From Verrucomicrobia bacterium UBA7008 (GTDB lineage Bacteria; Verrucomicrobiota; Kiritimatiellia; RFP12; UBA1067): 10,923 bases of DNA. The DNA is taken from positions 1-10,923 of the forward strand of contig DJXI01000004.1 in NCBI GenBank assembly GCA_002449695.1, read 5' to 3'. A program made the position numbers and the translations under genes. The notes under the pieces are model-generated. The model was not told the DNA's origin and made no database searches. It saw nothing but the letters and a program-made list of their open reading frames with translations. Shown piece after piece: positions 4,721 to 10,923 of the stretch (position 1 is its first letter; the number at the start of each line of letters is the position of its first letter).

Positions 4721-4739
4721 CGTGAAGCGCTTCGTCACG
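4721..4739. other. Small palindrome between terminator and CTAG array
   Basis: CGTGA and TCACG flank the perfect 10-bp palindrome GAAGCGCTTC (4724-4733), giving two alternative small hairpins. It lies in the putative 3' untranslated region of the metalloenzyme gene. Apart from this hairpin I see nothing in 4705-4743. Confidence 0.4.
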
Positions 4740-4743
4740 CCGA

Positions 4744-4909
4744 CTAGAGGAGCTAGACCGCTCGCTTCGCTCGCTACGCTAGACCGCGCCGCAAGCGGCG
4801 CTAATCTAGTACGCTCGCGCAGAGCGCGAGCTAATCTAGAATATCTAGACAAGCGAACGCAGTGAGCGATCTAGAACAGCGAGCACAGCGAGCGGTCTAG
4901 CCCCTCTAG
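4744..4909. repeat. Modular CTAG palindrome array
   Basis: Nine CTAG tetranucleotides start at 4744, 4753, 4779, 4806, 4836, 4845, 4871, 4897 and 4906, giving spacings of 9, 26, 27, 30, 9, 26, 26 and 9. Three of the long modules (4753-4778 forward, 4845-4870 and 4871-4896 reversed) share the pattern CTAGAYCGCTCRCT, two free bases, GYTCGCT, three free bases. The other two long modules contain perfect hairpins: 7-bp arms 4786-4792/4795-4801 and 8-bp arms 4813-4820/4824-4831. As a whole, 4744-4787 pairs with 4866-4909 at 37 of 44 positions. Short CTAATCTAG words recur at 4801 and 4831. There is no open frame of interest. The array would be transcribed as the 3' untranslated region of the rdgB operon. 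It is most likely an interspersed structured repeat; its function is unknown. Confidence 0.85.
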
Positions 4910-5793: not shown

Positions 5794-6600
5794 TTAGCGG
5801 CCGCGCCGTCCGCCGGGACCGCCCGGACCGCCGCCCGGACCGCCCGGACCGCGACCGACCCCGTTCGACGTCGCCTCGTAGATTTCGCTGATGGTGTCGA
5901 CGATCTCCGTCGCCTCGGCGCCCGAGAAGCCGAGCGCCTCGGCCGTCTGCTGCAGCAGGTTCTCGCGCTCCTGTTCGCTCGCCTCGCGGATCGCGCGGTC
6001 GGTCTCGTGCATCTGGCGGAAGATCTCGTCGCGCTGGTCGTCGGTCGTGCCCTCGGCGAACACCTGCGCCTCCAGCTCCTCGCGACGGGCGATGAGCGAC
6101 TGCAGATTCTCGTGCGTCTCCTTCGCCTTGCGGCTCATGCCCGACGTGTCGACGGACGCGAGGAAGTCGATCTTCGACTGCGCGCGCTCCGCCCGCCGCT
6201 GCATGAACTCCTGGCGGCGCTTCTCCATCCGCGCGAACTCCTCGGGGTTCTCCGCCTTCCACTTCTCGAAGTTCGCGCGCATCTCCTCGCGGCTCGGCCA
6301 GCCGCCGCGTTCGCCGCGCCCGCCGCGCCGCCCGTCCGCGGCCGGCGTCTCGTCGATCCGCGCCGCACCCGACGCCTCCTGCGTCCGGGCGAGCCGTGCC
6401 TCCAGCTCCGCGACGCGCGCGCGCAGGGCCGCCTCGCCCGCGCCGTCCACTTCGGCGATCAGTCCGCCGCCCGTGCGCGGCGCCTCGCCCGCGGCCGCAT
6501 CGGCGGGGGCCGCCGGACGGGACGATGACACGCCGCCGACATAGCCGACGGCAAGGCCGGCGGCCAGCGCGACGGCACCGATGATGAGCGTCTGTTTCAT
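5794..6600 (-). CDS. Membrane-anchored helical protein with Gly-Pro-Arg tail, function unknown
   Basis: A 268-residue protein that I do not recognise as a named family. Residues 4-24 form one hydrophobic segment (signal anchor or uncleaved signal peptide, no lipobox cysteine). Then comes an Ala/Pro-rich linker, a short predicted coil (56-75), an Arg/Gly-rich stretch (90-100), and a long charged helical region (103-245). The tail is low complexity, GPGG-type repeats ending GRRGR (251-268). The charged helices, rich in Glu, Arg and Gln and placed after a membrane signal, recall periplasmic Spy/CpxP-like helical chaperones, but no LTXXQ motif is evident, so this is only a suggestion. The ATG overlaps the rdgB stop (ATGA), and AGGGAG (6606-6611) lies 5 bases upstream, which fixes the start. 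The reading frame remains open further upstream, but that part overlaps rdgB and is rejected as a start. Confidence 0.8.
   Translation of the reverse strand: MKQTLIIGAVALAAGLAVGYVGGVSSSRPAAPADAAAGEAPRTGGGLIAEVDGAGEAALRARVAELEARLARTQEASGAARIDETPAADGRRGGRGERGGWPSREEMRANFEKWKAENPEEFARMEKRRQEFMQRRAERAQSKIDFLASVDTSGMSRKAKETHENLQSLIARREELEAQVFAEGTTDDQRDEIFRQMHETDRAIREASEQERENLLQQTAEALGFSGAEATEIVDTISEIYEATSNGVGRGPGGPGGGPGGPGGRRGR
5812..5850. repeat. Imperfect 9-bp tandem repeat in the coding tail
   Basis: GCCCGGACC occurs at 5821-5829, 5833-5841 and 5842-5850, with a variant at 5812-5820. It encodes the Gly-Pro-Gly-Gly tail of the membrane-anchored protein. Such a repeat may vary in copy number between strains by slippage. 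Confidence 0.7.
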
Positions 6601-7175
6601 TTCGTCTCCCTGTAGGCTGTCAGAATCTTCTTCGCGTCCGCGAGCGCGCGGCCGCGATGCGAAATCGCGTTCTTCTCGTCGGCGGTCAGCTCCGCGAACG
6701 ACCGCGTGTGGCCGTCGGGGATGAAGAGCGGATCGTAGCCGAATCCCGCGACGCCCGCCGCCGCCGTCGCGATGCGGCCGAAGCAGCGGCCGGTCACGAC
6801 ATGCTCCGCGCCGTCGGGATCGACGAGCGCGATCGCGCACGTGAAGTTCGCCGCGCGGTCGGCGACGCCCGCGAGGTTCGCGAGCAGCAGCGCGTTGTTG
6901 GCGGGCGTGTCGCCGTCGCGGCCCGCGTACCGGGCGCTGCGCACGCCGGGCGCGCCGCCGAGCGCGCGCACTTCGAGCCCGCTGTCGTCCGCCATCGCCC
7001 ATTCGCCCGCGTGCCGCCGGGCGATGGCGCGCACCTTGATGAGCGCGTTGCCCGCGAAGTCGGGCGCGTTCTCCTCCACGCCGACGGGGTTGTCGGCGAG
7101 GATGTCGACGCCGGGAAGGATCTGCGCGATCTCCCGGAGCTTGTGTGCATTGTGTGTCGCGACAAAAAGCTTCAT
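6597..7175 (-). CDS. rdgB: RdgB/HAM1-type dITP/XTP pyrophosphatase
   Basis: Cytoplasmic house-cleaning enzyme that hydrolyses dITP, ITP and XTP to monophosphate and pyrophosphate, keeping deaminated purines out of DNA and RNA. The 192 residues equal the usual family length. Motifs in order are ATHNAHKLREI (6-16; nucleotide and phosphate contacts Asn9, Lys12), FAGNALIKVRA (40-50), ADDSGLEV (62-69, catalytic Asp63/Asp64), GAPGVRSARYAG (74-85), GFGYDPLFIP (144-153) and SHRGRAL (172-178, base recognition). At the position where E. coli has a metal-binding Glu in its FIENA motif, this protein has Gly42, a variation that may be tolerated. It is the first gene of a three-gene operon. A TATACT box ends 7 bases before the ATG, no Shine-Dalgarno is visible, and the message is probably leaderless. 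The stop overlaps the next start. Confidence 0.95.
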   Translation of the reverse strand: MKLFVATHNAHKLREIAQILPGVDILADNPVGVEENAPDFAGNALIKVRAIARRHAGEWAMADDSGLEVRALGGAPGVRSARYAGRDGDTPANNALLLANLAGVADRAANFTCAIALVDPDGAEHVVTGRCFGRIATAAAGVAGFGYDPLFIPDGHTRSFAELTADEKNAISHRGRALADAKKILTAYRETK

Positions 7176-7182
7176 ATCCGGT

Positions 7183-7196
7183 AGTATATCAAAAAA
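7183..7196 (-). promoter_or_regulatory. Extended -10 promoter of the rdgB operon
   Basis: The minus strand reads TTTTTTGATATACT. The -10 box TATACT (7183-7188) is preceded by the extended element TGA (7189-7191) and a T6 tract. Just 7 bases separate the box from the rdgB ATG, placing the expected transcription start at or next to the start codon. The pattern is nearly identical to the smc promoter. No -35 consensus is evident. Confidence 0.7.
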
Positions 7197-7254: not shown

Positions 7255-9882
7255 CTACGGCGCGAAAAAGCGGACGGTGCCGCCGTGCGCCGTCCAGCTC
7301 GGCGTGCCGCCGTCCTCGAACGGCACGGCGACGAGCCGGATCCGGCGCGCGTCGACCGGCTGATCGAAGCGGACATCCTGCCGCACGGGATTCGCGCGGA
7401 TGTTGCCGAACTCGCCCGACGCGACGCGGCGCCACGCCGTCCCGTCGTCCGACGCGAACGCCTCGTAGCCCTTCGGCAGCGCGTCCGCCGGCGTGCCGGG
7501 CGTGAACGCGAAGCCCGCGACCGTCACGCGCGTCGGGAACGCGGCGAGATACGCCACGCCGTCCTCTTCGACCGTCGCGCGATGCGCAAGCGCCGTCTCC
7601 TTCACCGGCGGCTCGTCCGCGACGGAGCCGTCCTGCGGCGGCAGGACGCGCAGCGACAGATGCAGCGCGGCGGGCCCTTCGCTTTCGATATCCACAAGAA
7701 GGACGCTCGCGGTGACAGGCGCGGCGAAGCGGACGATGCGGCGATAGCCGATCTGTCCGCCGCGCGCGATTTCGCGGCCATCGGCAAACGCCTTCCACGA
7801 ATGCACGCGCAGCCCCTTGCGGATGTCCTCCCGGATGTCGAGCGCGTCGAACGTGCGCGGCCCCGGGAGCCGCCAAACTTGTTGCCTGGATTCGCCCCTC
7901 GTCACACGCCGCGCGTCCCTGGCGAGGTCGACCTTGTTGAACCGGCGCACCCACGCGCCGAACTCCTTCAGCCGCGCGACGTCGCCGTCGTCGATGAGTC
8001 CGTCGCGGTTGGGCGCGAGCCCGAGATCGAGGATGCCGCTGCGCCCGACGCTTTCAAGGTAGCGGTCGGTCAGTTCCTTCAGGCTTTTCGCGCGGTCGCC
8101 CGGATGCCAGAACCATTTGCCGCGCAGGGGCGTGTCGGCCTCGGGCGGCTGGAAGACGCCGTTGCGGACGAGATCGTAGTTTTCCGGCACGATGCCGCGC
8201 TCGTTGCCGGGCCAGCGCAGCGTGCGGTCCGTGTCCATGCCGAAGATGGCGGCGAGCGGATACTTCGCCGTGAGCGCCTTCAGGAGGCGCGGGTGGTCGT
8301 AGTAGATGTGCGCGGCGGGAATCTTGCGCGTCTCCTTCGCGCCGCCGTACCAGCCGTCGCCGCCGTTCGCGCCGTCGAGCCAGATTTCGGAGATGGGCCC
8401 GTAGTCCTTCATGAGCTCAGCCCACTGGCGGTGGAAATACTCGGTGTAGGCGGGACGCGCGTAGTCCGCGTGATGGCGGTCCCACGGCGAGAGGTACGCG
8501 CCGAACTCGAGCCCGGCGGCGAGCGTCGCGTCGCGCACCTCCTTCACGAGATCGCCCCTGCCGCCCCGCCACGGCGTGTTCGCCACCGTGTAGTCCTTGT
8601 TGTGCGCGCTCGGCCACAGGCAGAAGCCGTCGTGGTGCTTGCAGACGAGCACGAGGCGGCGGATGCCGCCCGCCTTCGCGGCCGCCACCCACTGCGCGGC
8701 GTCGAGCTGCGCGGGGTTGAACACCGCGGCCGGCGTGTCGCCGTAGCCCCATTCGCGGTTCGTGAACGTGTTCGGGCCGAAATGGACGATGGCGATCACG
8801 CCCTTGTCGAGCGCGCTCAGCGTCGCCGCGCTCGGCACGGGGACCGCCGCGCCGCGCGCCGCGCCGCCGCCGAGGGCCGCGCCGAGGAAGAGGAGGAGCA
8901 GCGCGCCCTTCACGGCACCGCGCCGGGCGACGTACGCATCGGCCGCGTTGAAGACGCCCGCCATCAGCGCGCCGGAGATGGAATGCCAGACGCACGACAC
9001 CGCCGAGGCGATCGCCGCCTCGGGCAGAAGCGGGAAGTGGCGCGCCGCGAGCACGGTCGCAAGCCCCGCGTTCTGCATCCCGACCTCGATCGAGATCGTG
9101 CGGCGCTTCGACTGCGTGAAGCGCGCGGCGACGCCGGCCAGATAGCCGCCGAGGTAGCCGAGCGCGTTGTGCAGGAAGACGGCCGCGAAGACGAGCGCGC
9201 CTGACGCGGCGAACCGATGCCCGTGCGCCGAAACGACGCCGCCGACAATGCAGGCCAGCCCCAGCACCGCGACGCCCGGCATCACCTTCAGCGTCTCGCG
9301 GTAGGCCGCGCGGCGGCCCCACACGGCGTTCAGCGCGAAGCCGAGCGCGACGGGCGCGAGCGTGACGAGCAGGATCGACTGGAACATCCCGAGCGCATCC
9401 ACGTCCACGGTCTCGCCCGCGAGCGTCAGCATGAGAAACGGCGTCATGAGCGGCGCCGCCAAGGTCGAGAGCGTCGTCATGCCGACCGAGAACGCGACGT
9501 CGCCCCTGCAGAGGAACGTCATGATGTTCGACGACACGCCGCCCGGGCAGCAGCCGACGAGGATGAGGCCGACGCCCACGGCCCGCGGCAGTCCCATCGC
9601 GTGCACGAGCGTCCACGCGATCGCCGGCATCAGGAGGAACTGCGCCGCCGTGCCGATCGCGATGTCCAGCGGCCGCGACAGGAGGATGCGGAAATCCTCG
9701 CCCTTGAGCGTCATGCCCATCGACAGCATGATGACGCCGAGAATCGCGGTCTGCACCGTCCCGTGCACCCAGCTGAACGCGGCCGGCACGAAATACGTCG
9801 CCACCGCGACCGCCGTGATGAACGCCGGCGTGGCGCGCGCCAGCGCCGCCGACGCCTTCTGAATCCGAATCAAAAGTCCCAT
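7255..9882 (-). CDS. Fusion of BASS-family sodium symporter and GH29 alpha-L-fucosidase
   Basis: One uninterrupted 875-residue frame. Residues 1-323 are a complete bile acid:sodium symporter-type transporter (PF01758-like), with several hydrophobic helices, MGMTL (55-59), CCPGGVSSN (111-119) and the sodium-site motif EVGMQNAG (266-273). After YVARRGAVKG comes a hydrophobic segment (326-340) ending in a possible signal peptidase site (GAA, 344-346). The rest is a GH29 fucosidase: HFGPN (367-371), CKHHDGF (414-420), IWLDG with likely nucleophile Asp503, and RWPGNERG with Glu561 as candidate acid/base. C-terminal beta domains follow, the last resembling an F5/8-type C (discoidin-like) fold (about 775-875). 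The GNE motif and C-terminal form suggest the alpha-1,3/4-fucoside subgroup. The ATG is fixed by GGGGAGG at 9887-9893. Bacterial BASS proteins end in the cytoplasm, so the extra helix would place the fucosidase in the periplasm. Alternatively GTG 8911-8913 (Val324) or Met308 could start a separate fucosidase, but no Shine-Dalgarno supports this. Confidence 0.85.
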   Translation of the reverse strand: MGLLIRIQKASAALARATPAFITAVAVATYFVPAAFSWVHGTVQTAILGVIMLSMGMTLKGEDFRILLSRPLDIAIGTAAQFLLMPAIAWTLVHAMGLPRAVGVGLILVGCCPGGVSSNIMTFLCRGDVAFSVGMTTLSTLAAPLMTPFLMLTLAGETVDVDALGMFQSILLVTLAPVALGFALNAVWGRRAAYRETLKVMPGVAVLGLACIVGGVVSAHGHRFAASGALVFAAVFLHNALGYLGGYLAGVAARFTQSKRRTISIEVGMQNAGLATVLAARHFPLLPEAAIASAVSCVWHSISGALMAGVFNAADAYVARRGAVKGALLLLFLGAALGGGAARGAAVPVPSAATLSALDKGVIAIVHFGPNTFTNREWGYGDTPAAVFNPAQLDAAQWVAAAKAGGIRRLVLVCKHHDGFCLWPSAHNKDYTVANTPWRGGRGDLVKEVRDATLAAGLEFGAYLSPWDRHHADYARPAYTEYFHRQWAELMKDYGPISEIWLDGANGGDGWYGGAKETRKIPAAHIYYDHPRLLKALTAKYPLAAIFGMDTDRTLRWPGNERGIVPENYDLVRNGVFQPPEADTPLRGKWFWHPGDRAKSLKELTDRYLESVGRSGILDLGLAPNRDGLIDDGDVARLKEFGAWVRRFNKVDLARDARRVTRGESRQQVWRLPGPRTFDALDIREDIRKGLRVHSWKAFADGREIARGGQIGYRRIVRFAAPVTASVLLVDIESEGPAALHLSLRVLPPQDGSVADEPPVKETALAHRATVEEDGVAYLAAFPTRVTVAGFAFTPGTPADALPKGYEAFASDDGTAWRRVASGEFGNIRANPVRQDVRFDQPVDARRIRLVAVPFEDGGTPSWTAHGGTVRFFAP

Positions 9883-9886
9883 CTTT

Positions 9887-9893
9887 CCTCCCC
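9887..9893 (-). promoter_or_regulatory. Ribosome-binding site of the symporter-fucosidase gene
   Basis: GGGGAGG lies 4 bases before the ATG at 9880-9882 and is the strongest Shine-Dalgarno in the window. It settles the start of the fusion frame, whose open frame otherwise runs on into queA. No promoter-like box is seen in the 35-base gap, so the gene is probably read from the queA transcript. Confidence 0.8.
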
Positions 9894-9917
9894 TTTCACC
9901 GTTCGCCGCCGCGGCCG

Positions 9918-10923
9918 TCAGACGATCAGCATGCAGTCGCCGTAGCTGAAGAACATGTAGTTGTTCCGGACCGCCATCGCGTAGGCGCAGAGCACCCGTT
10001 CGCGCCCCGCGAGCGCCGAGATCATCATGAGCAGCGTCGACTGCGGCAGGTGGAAGTTCGTCAGCATCGCGTCGCACACCTTGAAGTCGTACGGCGGATA
10101 GATAAAGATGTCGCTCGCGCCCGAACCGGCCGTCACGACCTTCCCCGATTCATGCGTCGCCGCCGCGACCGTCTCGAGCGTGCGGACCGTCGTGGAGCCG
10201 ACGCAGAAGACGCGCCCGCCGCGCGCCTTGCACGCGTTGATCGCGTCCGCCGCCTCGGGCGGCACGGTGAACGCCTCGAAATCCATCTGGTGGTCTTCGA
10301 TGTTCTCCGCCTTGACGGGGCGGAACGTCCCCGGCCCCACGTGGAGCGTGACGGCGACGCGCGGCACGCCCTTCGCGTCGAGCGCGGCGAAGATCTCCGG
10401 CGTGAAGTGGAGCCCCGCCGTCGGCGCGGCGACCGAGCCGACGTGCTTCGCGTAGATCGTCTGGTAGCGTTCGCGGTCCGCCAGCTCCTCCTCGCGCGTC
10501 CCTTCGCGCTTGACGTACGGCGGCACGGGCGTGTGGCCGAATTCGTCGAGCAGCTCCATGAGCGGCCGCGTGCAGATGAACGCGGCCTTCCACATGCCGA
10601 TACCGGCGAGCGGTTCGAGGAGCTTCACGCGCAGCTCCCCGTTCGGGCCGAAGACGGCGACCTGCCCCGCGCGGCACCTGCGCCCCGAACCGATGATGCA
10701 GTTCCAGACGAGCGCCGTCGTGTCGGGCGCGGCCGAGACCATCAGCACCTCGATCGCGCCGCCCGTGTCGGGCCACGTGCCGATGAGCCGCGCCGGAAAG
10801 ACCTTCGTGTCGTTCACGACGAGGAGGTCGTTCGGCTCGATGTAGTCGACGATGTCCGCGATGTGGCGGTGCTCCAGGACGCCCGTCGCGCGGTGCAGCA
10901 CCATCATCTTCTCGGTGCCGCGC
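9918..10923 (-). CDS. queA: QueA, tRNA preQ1(34) S-adenosylmethionine ribosyltransferase-isomerase (5' end outside window)
   Basis: Cytoplasmic enzyme that transfers and isomerises the ribosyl part of S-adenosylmethionine onto preQ1-tRNA to form epoxyqueuosine. Family motifs are complete over the visible part, numbered from the Met codon ending at 10907: VNDTKVFPARL (31-41), HTPVPPYVKR (125-134), AKHVGSVAAPTAGLHFT (153-169), HVGPGTFRPV (189-198), GSTTVRTLE (237-245), NFHLPQSTL (284-292) and FSYGDCMLI (320-328). The frame stays open to the window edge as RGTEK before that Met, aligning with the usual R-(D/x)-x-S-R-L stretch. The real start therefore lies beyond 10923, with roughly 25 residues missing. 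The stop is 35 bases upstream of the symporter-fucosidase start, so the two are likely co-transcribed, although no functional link is apparent. Confidence 0.95.
   Translation of the reverse strand, partial: RGTEKMMVLHRATGVLEHRHIADIVDYIEPNDLLVVNDTKVFPARLIGTWPDTGGAIEVLMVSAAPDTTALVWNCIIGSGRRCRAGQVAVFGPNGELRVKLLEPLAGIGMWKAAFICTRPLMELLDEFGHTPVPPYVKREGTREEELADRERYQTIYAKHVGSVAAPTAGLHFTPEIFAALDAKGVPRVAVTLHVGPGTFRPVKAENIEDHQMDFEAFTVPPEAADAINACKARGGRVFCVGSTTVRTLETVAAATHESGKVVTAGSGASDIFIYPPYDFKVCDAMLTNFHLPQSTLLMMISALAGRERVLCAYAMAVRNNYMFFSYGDCMLIV

Follow-up and report, generated by a model that had tools for sequence, protein, structure and literature searches.

A BASS-family transporter and a GH29 alpha-L-fucosidase in one open frame of Verrucomicrobia bacterium UBA7008, a possible recent stop-loss fusion

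The stretch of DNA considered here, called the window in what follows, is a whole contig of 10,923 bases (C42:1-10923) from the draft genome of Verrucomicrobia bacterium UBA7008, a member of the Kiritimatiellia, which amounts to 2.52 Mb in 94 contigs and is 82% complete. Its minus strand carries one open frame of 875 codons at 7255-9882, from an ATG at 9882 to a stop at 7257-7255, in which the order is a transporter of the BASS/SBF family, a signal-like join, an alpha-L-fucosidase of glycoside hydrolase family 29 (GH29), and a discoidin-like end. A first-pass annotation, made from the letters of the window, had described such a stop-free frame holding both proteins, and in this it is borne out, coordinates included, by the open frame itself and by Pfam; its assignment of residues 1-323 to the transporter holds as regards a full BASS part, the end of which is now placed at about residue 322 (8917).

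The SBF family (PF01758) matches residues 47-222 with an E value of 5.2e-37 and 127.8 bits, against a gathering score of 24.3, and GH29 (PF01120) matches residues 368-647 (E 6.6e-34, 118.3 bits, gathering score 25.2), while the F5/8 type C module (PF00754) at residues 786-854 reaches 27.2 bits, under its cut-off of 28.2. A frame open by chance was considered and rejected, as both halves align with their own homologues in this one frame. The gene queA precedes the BASS part by 35 bases on the same strand, and the two are likely one operon; a HAM1-type gene comes next after the fused frame. A ribosome-site-like sequence, GGGGAGGAAAG (GGGGAGG), stands before the BASS ATG at 9882, and neither a Shine-Dalgarno-like sequence nor TATAAT occurs in the 22 bases upstream of the GTG at 8913, so that, with the frame taken as it stands, the enzyme would hardly be made except within the fusion. 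The coordinates of these features are collected in Table 1.

Table 1. Features of the fused frame and its surroundings (positions in the window; G009 is the closest relative found).
Feature	Position	Strand	Basis
875-residue open frame, BASS + signal-like segment + GH29 alpha-L-fucosidase	7255..9882	-	Frame and Pfam
BASS/SBF part, residues 1-322	8917..9882	-	Pfam and phmmer alignment to 8oyf/3zuy
Junction stretch, 32 bp	8902..8933	-	blastn against the G009 loci
GTG in frame, residue 324	8911..8913	-	Ungapped protein comparison
TGA in the +1 frame relative to BASS, sharing bases with the GTG (GTGA)	8910..8912	-	Frame inspection
Segment resembling a signal peptide, VKGALLLLFLGAALGGGAARGAA (residues 324-346), which may be an 11th helix or be cleaved	8845..8913	-	Hydropathy and similarity to the N-termini of P0002/P0003
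GH29 catalytic domain	7942..8781	-	Pfam range
F5/8 type C (discoidin-like) C-terminal module	7321..7527	-	Pfam, just below cut-off
Shine-Dalgarno-like GGGGAGGAAAG ahead of the BASS ATG	9883..9893	-	Sequence inspection
queA, first codons absent (frame runs off the contig end)	9918..10907	-	Frame and family matches

Regarding the transporter half, the best match among solved structures is ASBT-NM of Neisseria (8oyf/3zuy; phmmer, E 7.4e-73 over residues 8-312). Residues S118, N119, E266, V267, M269 and Q270 align with S114, N115, E260, V261, M263 and Q264 of that protein, which we take to be its Na+ sites, and judged from this alignment the sodium-site residues are kept. An AlphaFold model of residues 1-361 gives a helical BASS part, with a mean predicted local distance difference test (pLDDT) of 81-97 per ten-residue block over residues 1-320 and a predicted template modelling score of 0.80. 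In its best structural match, its conserved sodium-site residues and its confident helical model, the protein thus resembles the ASBT-NM/PanS-type members of the family (PF01758, TIGR00841), from which it differs in running on into an enzyme and in falling under two NCBIfam cut-offs, namely the curated one for bass (TIGR00841, 224.7 against 326.3 bits) and the equivalog one for the PanS ketopantoate transporter (NF047939, 211.1 against 400 bits), the whole 875-residue chain having been scanned in both cases. In PMC10645422, bacterial BASS members are given ten helices, ASBT-NM is stated to bind pantoate, and the transport of pantoate/ketopantoate is linked to PanS. We considered and rejected fucose uptake by the transporter, the nearest solved structure being ASBT-NM and nothing having been found that points to fucose.

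The enzyme half aligns with the GH29 structures 5k9h, 4zrx, 8ayr and 3ues. Its D503 and E561 fall opposite D172 and E217 of 3ues, presumably the catalytic nucleophile Asp and the acid/base Glu, and the catalytic residues of the predicted enzyme are kept accordingly in this alignment. The likeness to known fucosidases (the alpha-1,3/4-fucosidase 3ues/3mo4, 0940_GH29 of 5k9h, 4zrx and 8ayr) lies in these long matches and in the aligned Asp and Glu, the match to 5k9h extending through the C-terminal region too; the difference is that the window enzyme is preceded by a transporter and has a GTG where its relatives have their ATG. Four further GH29 matches occur elsewhere in the same genome, three of them clustered on another contig (G000:C67:8530-15763) and one within a 2021-codon frame of C72.

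The join reads ...NAADAYVARRG-AVKGALLLLFLGAALGGGAARGAAVPVPS..., that is, positive residues followed by a hydrophobic stretch of 11 residues, ALLLLFLGAAL, with a mean Kyte-Doolittle value of 2.78. This stretch, together with the ARR...K tail ahead of it, has the appearance of a classical signal peptide that came with a secreted enzyme, and the RR and K singled out in the first-pass annotation are confirmed by the join sequence and its hydropathy. As the core is short (about 11 residues) and is followed by the small residues GGGAARGAA, cleavage would be expected near residues 341-346. The C-terminus of ten-helix bacterial BASS members is taken to be cytoplasmic, and the proposed geometry, in which a cytoplasmic C-terminus, positive charges and a signal-like helix lead to an extracytoplasmic enzyme, is sensible and recurs in five other BASS fusions, discussed below.

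At the DNA level, the 32 bp at 8902-8933 align by blastn to neither the BASS locus nor the fucosidase locus of G009, while some protein likeness persists on both sides of them, to the end of the G009 BASS (NAADAFLARRKGDL-stop) and to the start of its fucosidase (MSGMNRLLIFSFLGAALCGGAARGAPVPVPS). An ungapped protein comparison pairs V324, encoded by the GTG at 8913-8911, with Met 4 of the relative's fucosidase (MSGMN...). Identity is then 15 of 24 residues, and it falls to 4 of 24 when Met 1 is taken as the start; in the blastn alignment a gap of 3 bases is introduced close to the fucosidase start. The junction DNA found no match among the plasmids searched.

In G009 the two halves are separate and lie on different contigs, one of which (C123, locus L037) is the exact reverse complement of the record L079 of Kiritimatiellae bacterium isolate RGIG4421, from roe deer omasum. 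Its queA-BASS locus is 98.4% identical in DNA to window 8934-10923, and its BASS gene closes with a stop of its own after residue 325, ahead of a GH43 gene. The fucosidase of G009 (L036), 97.3% identical in DNA over window 7337-8901, lies behind a mannitol-dehydrogenase gene and has its own ATG, with the promoter-like TTTTGATATAATG directly before it. Fucosidases with their own start and the same separate signal peptide also make up the protein clusters P0002 (97%) and P0003 (91%). Close relatives with a stop codon and a separate start between the parts had been named in the first-pass annotation as what would speak against its fusion; G009 has both, on different contigs, and the objection applies in part.

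A mosaic emerges when the window is compared with G009 over its whole length: besides the two values given above, identity is 84% at HAM1 (231 bases) and 96% at a metalloenzyme gene (5794-4753), and SMC, hisB and hisA are unmatched in G009 beyond short pieces (40 of 601 candidates scored). This suggests either extensive recombination or gaps in the drafts. In the set of 31 loci compared, queA stands next to BASS only in the window and in G009, so that gene order gives no outside test. A junction query of 451 bases found matches in 46 of 61 genomes of the genus, the window's own included, and none in 15; the window alone is matched over the full length of the query, and in none of the other genomes does a match cross the junction from BASS into the fucosidase. 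These genomes are drafts, 56-93% complete, with as a rule ten candidates scored in each, and absence from them is not proof. A conserved BASS-GH29 fusion family should show the same architecture in other genomes, and in this search it was seen in none. The earlier suggestion that hydrolysis is coupled to uptake finds no support as a conserved or purposeful arrangement, G009 being unfused, the join having been seen in only one of the genus genomes searched, and the BASS part being nearest to ASBT-NM among solved structures.

Other fusions of BASS proteins provide a wider frame for this case. The BASS proteins of 481-1531 residues found in the protein database fall into 53 clusters, none of which has GH29 and 29 of which have a C-terminal extension of at least 150 residues; 24 remain when the plant and algal P0154, P0156, P0157 and P0160 and the tandem-BASS P0122 (with an N-terminal caspase-like domain) are left out. 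Normally cytosolic partners occur in 19 of the 24 (eight YrdC, four HAD, four APH, an SDR, an adenine deaminase, and, in P0135, an extension read as a P-type-ATPase-like piece), and secreted-type partners in five, namely SH3_3 in P0107 and P0121, PAP2 in P0123, a phytase-like domain in P0124 and an alpha/beta hydrolase in P0127, these sides having been assigned from general knowledge and the domains rechecked for 8 of the 24. Against a line of 2.4 chosen after the values were seen, the join 11-mer scores at or above it in all five secreted-type fusions (2.40-3.05) and in none of the 19 cytosolic ones (highest 2.09). With a BASS C-terminus, a hydrophobic join and an extracytoplasmic-type domain, the window protein has the make-up of a BASS fusion with a secreted partner. 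It resembles the other C-terminal fusions in that BASS ends at the same place and the next protein continues, with secreted-type partners keeping a signal-like segment, and it differs in being a singleton, whereas two clusters are of the SH3_3 kind and eight of the YrdC kind. As P0107 and P0121 share their architecture at 66% identity, either a fusion of this type has persisted or it has formed on two occasions.

Extensions of this sort are rare among the BASS C-termini examined. Of 123 matches, one ending before residue 300 was dropped and duplicates were merged, which left 97 distinct C-termini (26 from genomes of the genus), and only three of these, from the window, G006 and G050, have an uninterrupted extension of at least 100 residues. 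A further two break off at a contig end, and in L134 a stop codon in frame precedes the extension. Judged by sequence, the case in G006 (L064) is a fusion with a HAD-type phosphatase, of the kind of P0071, and that in G050 (L066/L204) joins BASS to a Sua5-like YrdC protein, as do P0076, P0079, P0084, P0085, P0088, P0090, P0091 and P0094; this BASS-YrdC fusion is better conserved than the one with the fucosidase and may be the more promising of the two. Taken together, these cases suggest, as the simplest rule, that BASS genes fuse with any downstream gene, the partner keeping its own targeting, and under such a rule the window case is explained without a special purpose.

The explanation that we favour, at a probability of slightly more than one half, is a stop-loss fusion, recent or confined to a single lineage, that makes a polyprotein; the enzyme would leave the cytoplasm by means of the signal segment that it kept and would probably be cleaved from the chain. 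An ASBT-NM-like BASS gene and the gene of a secreted GH29 fucosidase related to the alpha-1,3/4-fucosidases would have become neighbours in this lineage and then fused via loss of the BASS stop codon, the fucosidase, now presumably lacking a promoter of its own, forming the tail of the putative queA-BASS operon. One chain of 875 residues would be translated, the transporter would insert with its C-terminus in the cytoplasm, and the retained signal segment would enter the membrane and take the fucosidase out. Signal peptidase would then most likely free the mature enzyme and leave the transporter with a short extra helix, and such cleavage would yield transporter and enzyme in a fixed ratio; the calculated masses are about 94 kDa for the whole chain and about 58.5 kDa for the freed enzyme. 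Provided that the join is present in the living genome, we infer a fusion tolerated by the cell and not a conserved coupled machine.

The substitutions that separate the window from G009 were counted for each half. The ratio of non-synonymous to synonymous rates (dN/dS) is about 0.22 for BASS (dS 0.040, dN 0.009) and likewise about 0.22 for the fucosidase (dS 0.062, dN 0.014), values that indicate purifying selection on both at the sequence level. With changes assigned to branches by parsimony, using four outgroup sequences per half, the synonymous and non-synonymous changes on the window side number 3 and 2 for BASS and 5 and 2 for the fucosidase, those on the G009 side 3 and 3 for BASS, and those without a branch 4 and 1 for BASS and 4 and 5 for the fucosidase. 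Neither half, then, appears decayed in the window.

Several points weigh against a stop-loss fusion of this kind. The changes behind the two ratios are undatable relative to the fusion, and those on the G009 side of the fucosidase number 11 synonymous and 11 non-synonymous. The AlphaFold model of residues 1-361 presents 287-337 as a single continuous helix, not a hairpin, with pLDDT under 50 from residue 338, and as a model it neither favours nor rules out an 11th membrane crossing; a full-chain model from a mixed alignment was dropped as a guide to the join, residues 224-229, 236-330 and 336-343 being under pLDDT 50, probably through MAFFT placing BASS C-termini over fucosidase columns. The 2.4 hydropathy line was drawn with the values in view, and two of the proteins left out, P0157 of a plant (3.11) and the tandem-BASS P0122 (3.15), lie above it as well. 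None of the 60 other genus genomes, drafts with as a rule ten candidates scored in each, shows the join, and no BASS-GH29 join occurs among the matches listed from a database of 5.8 billion proteins (120 of 881, 53 of 53, and 23 of 23 with 4 read), where the searches scored 7999 candidates for the listing of 120 and, for the BASS fusions, the 7994 sharing most words. The window's own fused protein is absent from the 120 of 881 matches listed, and no second assembly, listed cluster or fragment spans the join, which is known from a single contig. The TGA at 8912-8910, which shares bases with the GTG in the next frame, would give a BASS of a normal 323 residues.

This last point leads to a different reading of the locus, namely two separate genes with a 4-base GTGA overlap, in which BASS ends at the TGA and the fucosidase starts from the GTG at 8913 by coupled translation, the open frame being due to a one-base assembly error or a strain polymorphism. 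The TGA is the first stop in the +1 frame past residue 312, and its overlap with the GTG means that the fused and unfused states may be as little as one base of length apart; this difference is a likely origin of the fusion and also its most serious rival. The BASS protein would then have its usual length, as 94 of the 97 C-termini lack an uninterrupted extension of at least 100 residues, and the start would lie opposite the relative's Met 4, in keeping with a join known from one assembly among the genus genomes and the listed protein matches. Any start codon followed by A, however, yields TGA in the next frame, which makes the overlap slender evidence in itself; the ARR tail fits the relatives in the given frame up to 8920, which confines a slip to the few bases after it; and one-base errors are rare in short-read assemblies, which would count here if this genome came from such reads. 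We hold two overlapping genes to be unlikely, if credible. A chimeric contig, in which the assembler linked a queA-BASS contig to a fucosidase-HAM1 contig, would agree with the halves of G009 lying on different contigs among other neighbours, with the identity mosaic, and with the window being a contig of 10,923 bases in a draft of 94. Such graph chimeras usually need a shared word at the join, where here the 32 bp match neither partner; within its own genome the junction query otherwise has nothing but short, weak matches, with E values of 4e-5 at best (10 of 352 candidates scored); and a random chimera would rarely be in frame and beside a start codon position, all of which makes an artefact of this sort quite improbable.

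The remaining possibility takes the fusion at face value as a true single-chain machine, with the fucosidase anchored by an uncleaved 11th helix and its hydrolysis coupled to uptake. The positive tail and hydrophobic join on an intact BASS fold, as modelled by AlphaFold, would suit it, as would the comparable layout of BASS, signal and secreted domain in P0107 and P0121. Yet the ligand reported for ASBT-NM (pantoate) and the transport in which PanS is implicated (pantoate/ketopantoate) in PMC10645422 offer no link to fucose, and none was found otherwise; the fusion was found neither in G009 nor in the rest of the genus genomes searched; the core of the join is as short as in cleaved signals; and the genome has its four other GH29 matches. 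We regard such a machine as improbable. Scarcely less doubtful is the broader claim that a single BASS-GH29 chain with a periplasmic fucosidase on an 11th helix belongs to a wider habit of BASS C-termini serving as anchors or export platforms; no such habit for extracytoplasmic enzymes was found in open-licence PubMed Central text. Searches of the same text found no paper on a fusion of BASS with a fucosidase, on a BASS C-terminal-domain fusion or on a fusion of a transporter with a glycoside hydrolase; those that turned up for Verrucomicrobia with fucosidases and transporters deal with hot-spring galactosidases and with mucinolysomes. The search for homologues carrying both PF01758 and PF01120, proposed in the first-pass annotation, gave none among the listed database matches, which agrees with its remark that it knew of no described BASS-GH29 fusion. 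The combination is found nowhere else among the matches listed and the genus genomes examined.

Other features of the window may be of use to readers interested in this genus. A palindromic CTAGA-type repeat lies at 4733-4909, between SMC and the metalloenzyme gene; with at least 48 match segments in its own genome (self included, both orientations, 40 of 57 candidates scored) and many in G009, it looks like a dispersed repetitive extragenic palindromic (REP)-like element. The protein encoded at 5794-6600, which starts MKQTLIIGAV, has a signal-like N-terminus and a glycine-rich end, and occurs beside HAM1 in G022 and G046 at 41-45%; the longer open frame around it (5794-7002) has no Pfam match. 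TATAAT followed by ATG after 6-9 bases is enriched in 62 genus sequences (310 kb, overlapping loci included), with counts of 5, 9, 8 and 8 for the four spacings against 1, 1, 0 and 0 for a GTA control. Examples are found before HAM1 in the window (7176-7188, minus strand) and at gene starts in L036 and L037, and the counts suggest that leaderless starts are widespread in the genus. The exact promoter pattern GATATAATN7ATG, found 3 times in the window's own genome against 0 in the control, was too rare and was left unused.

On the favoured reading, then, the window would present a fresh-looking gene fusion by stop loss, the unfused halves of which are still 97-98% identical in DNA in a relative. 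Were the anchored form true instead, it would be an unusual tethering of a glycosidase to the inner membrane. Together with the other BASS fusions, the case suggests that a cytoplasmic C-terminus lets this transporter accept almost any downstream neighbour, because each partner keeps its own targeting signal.

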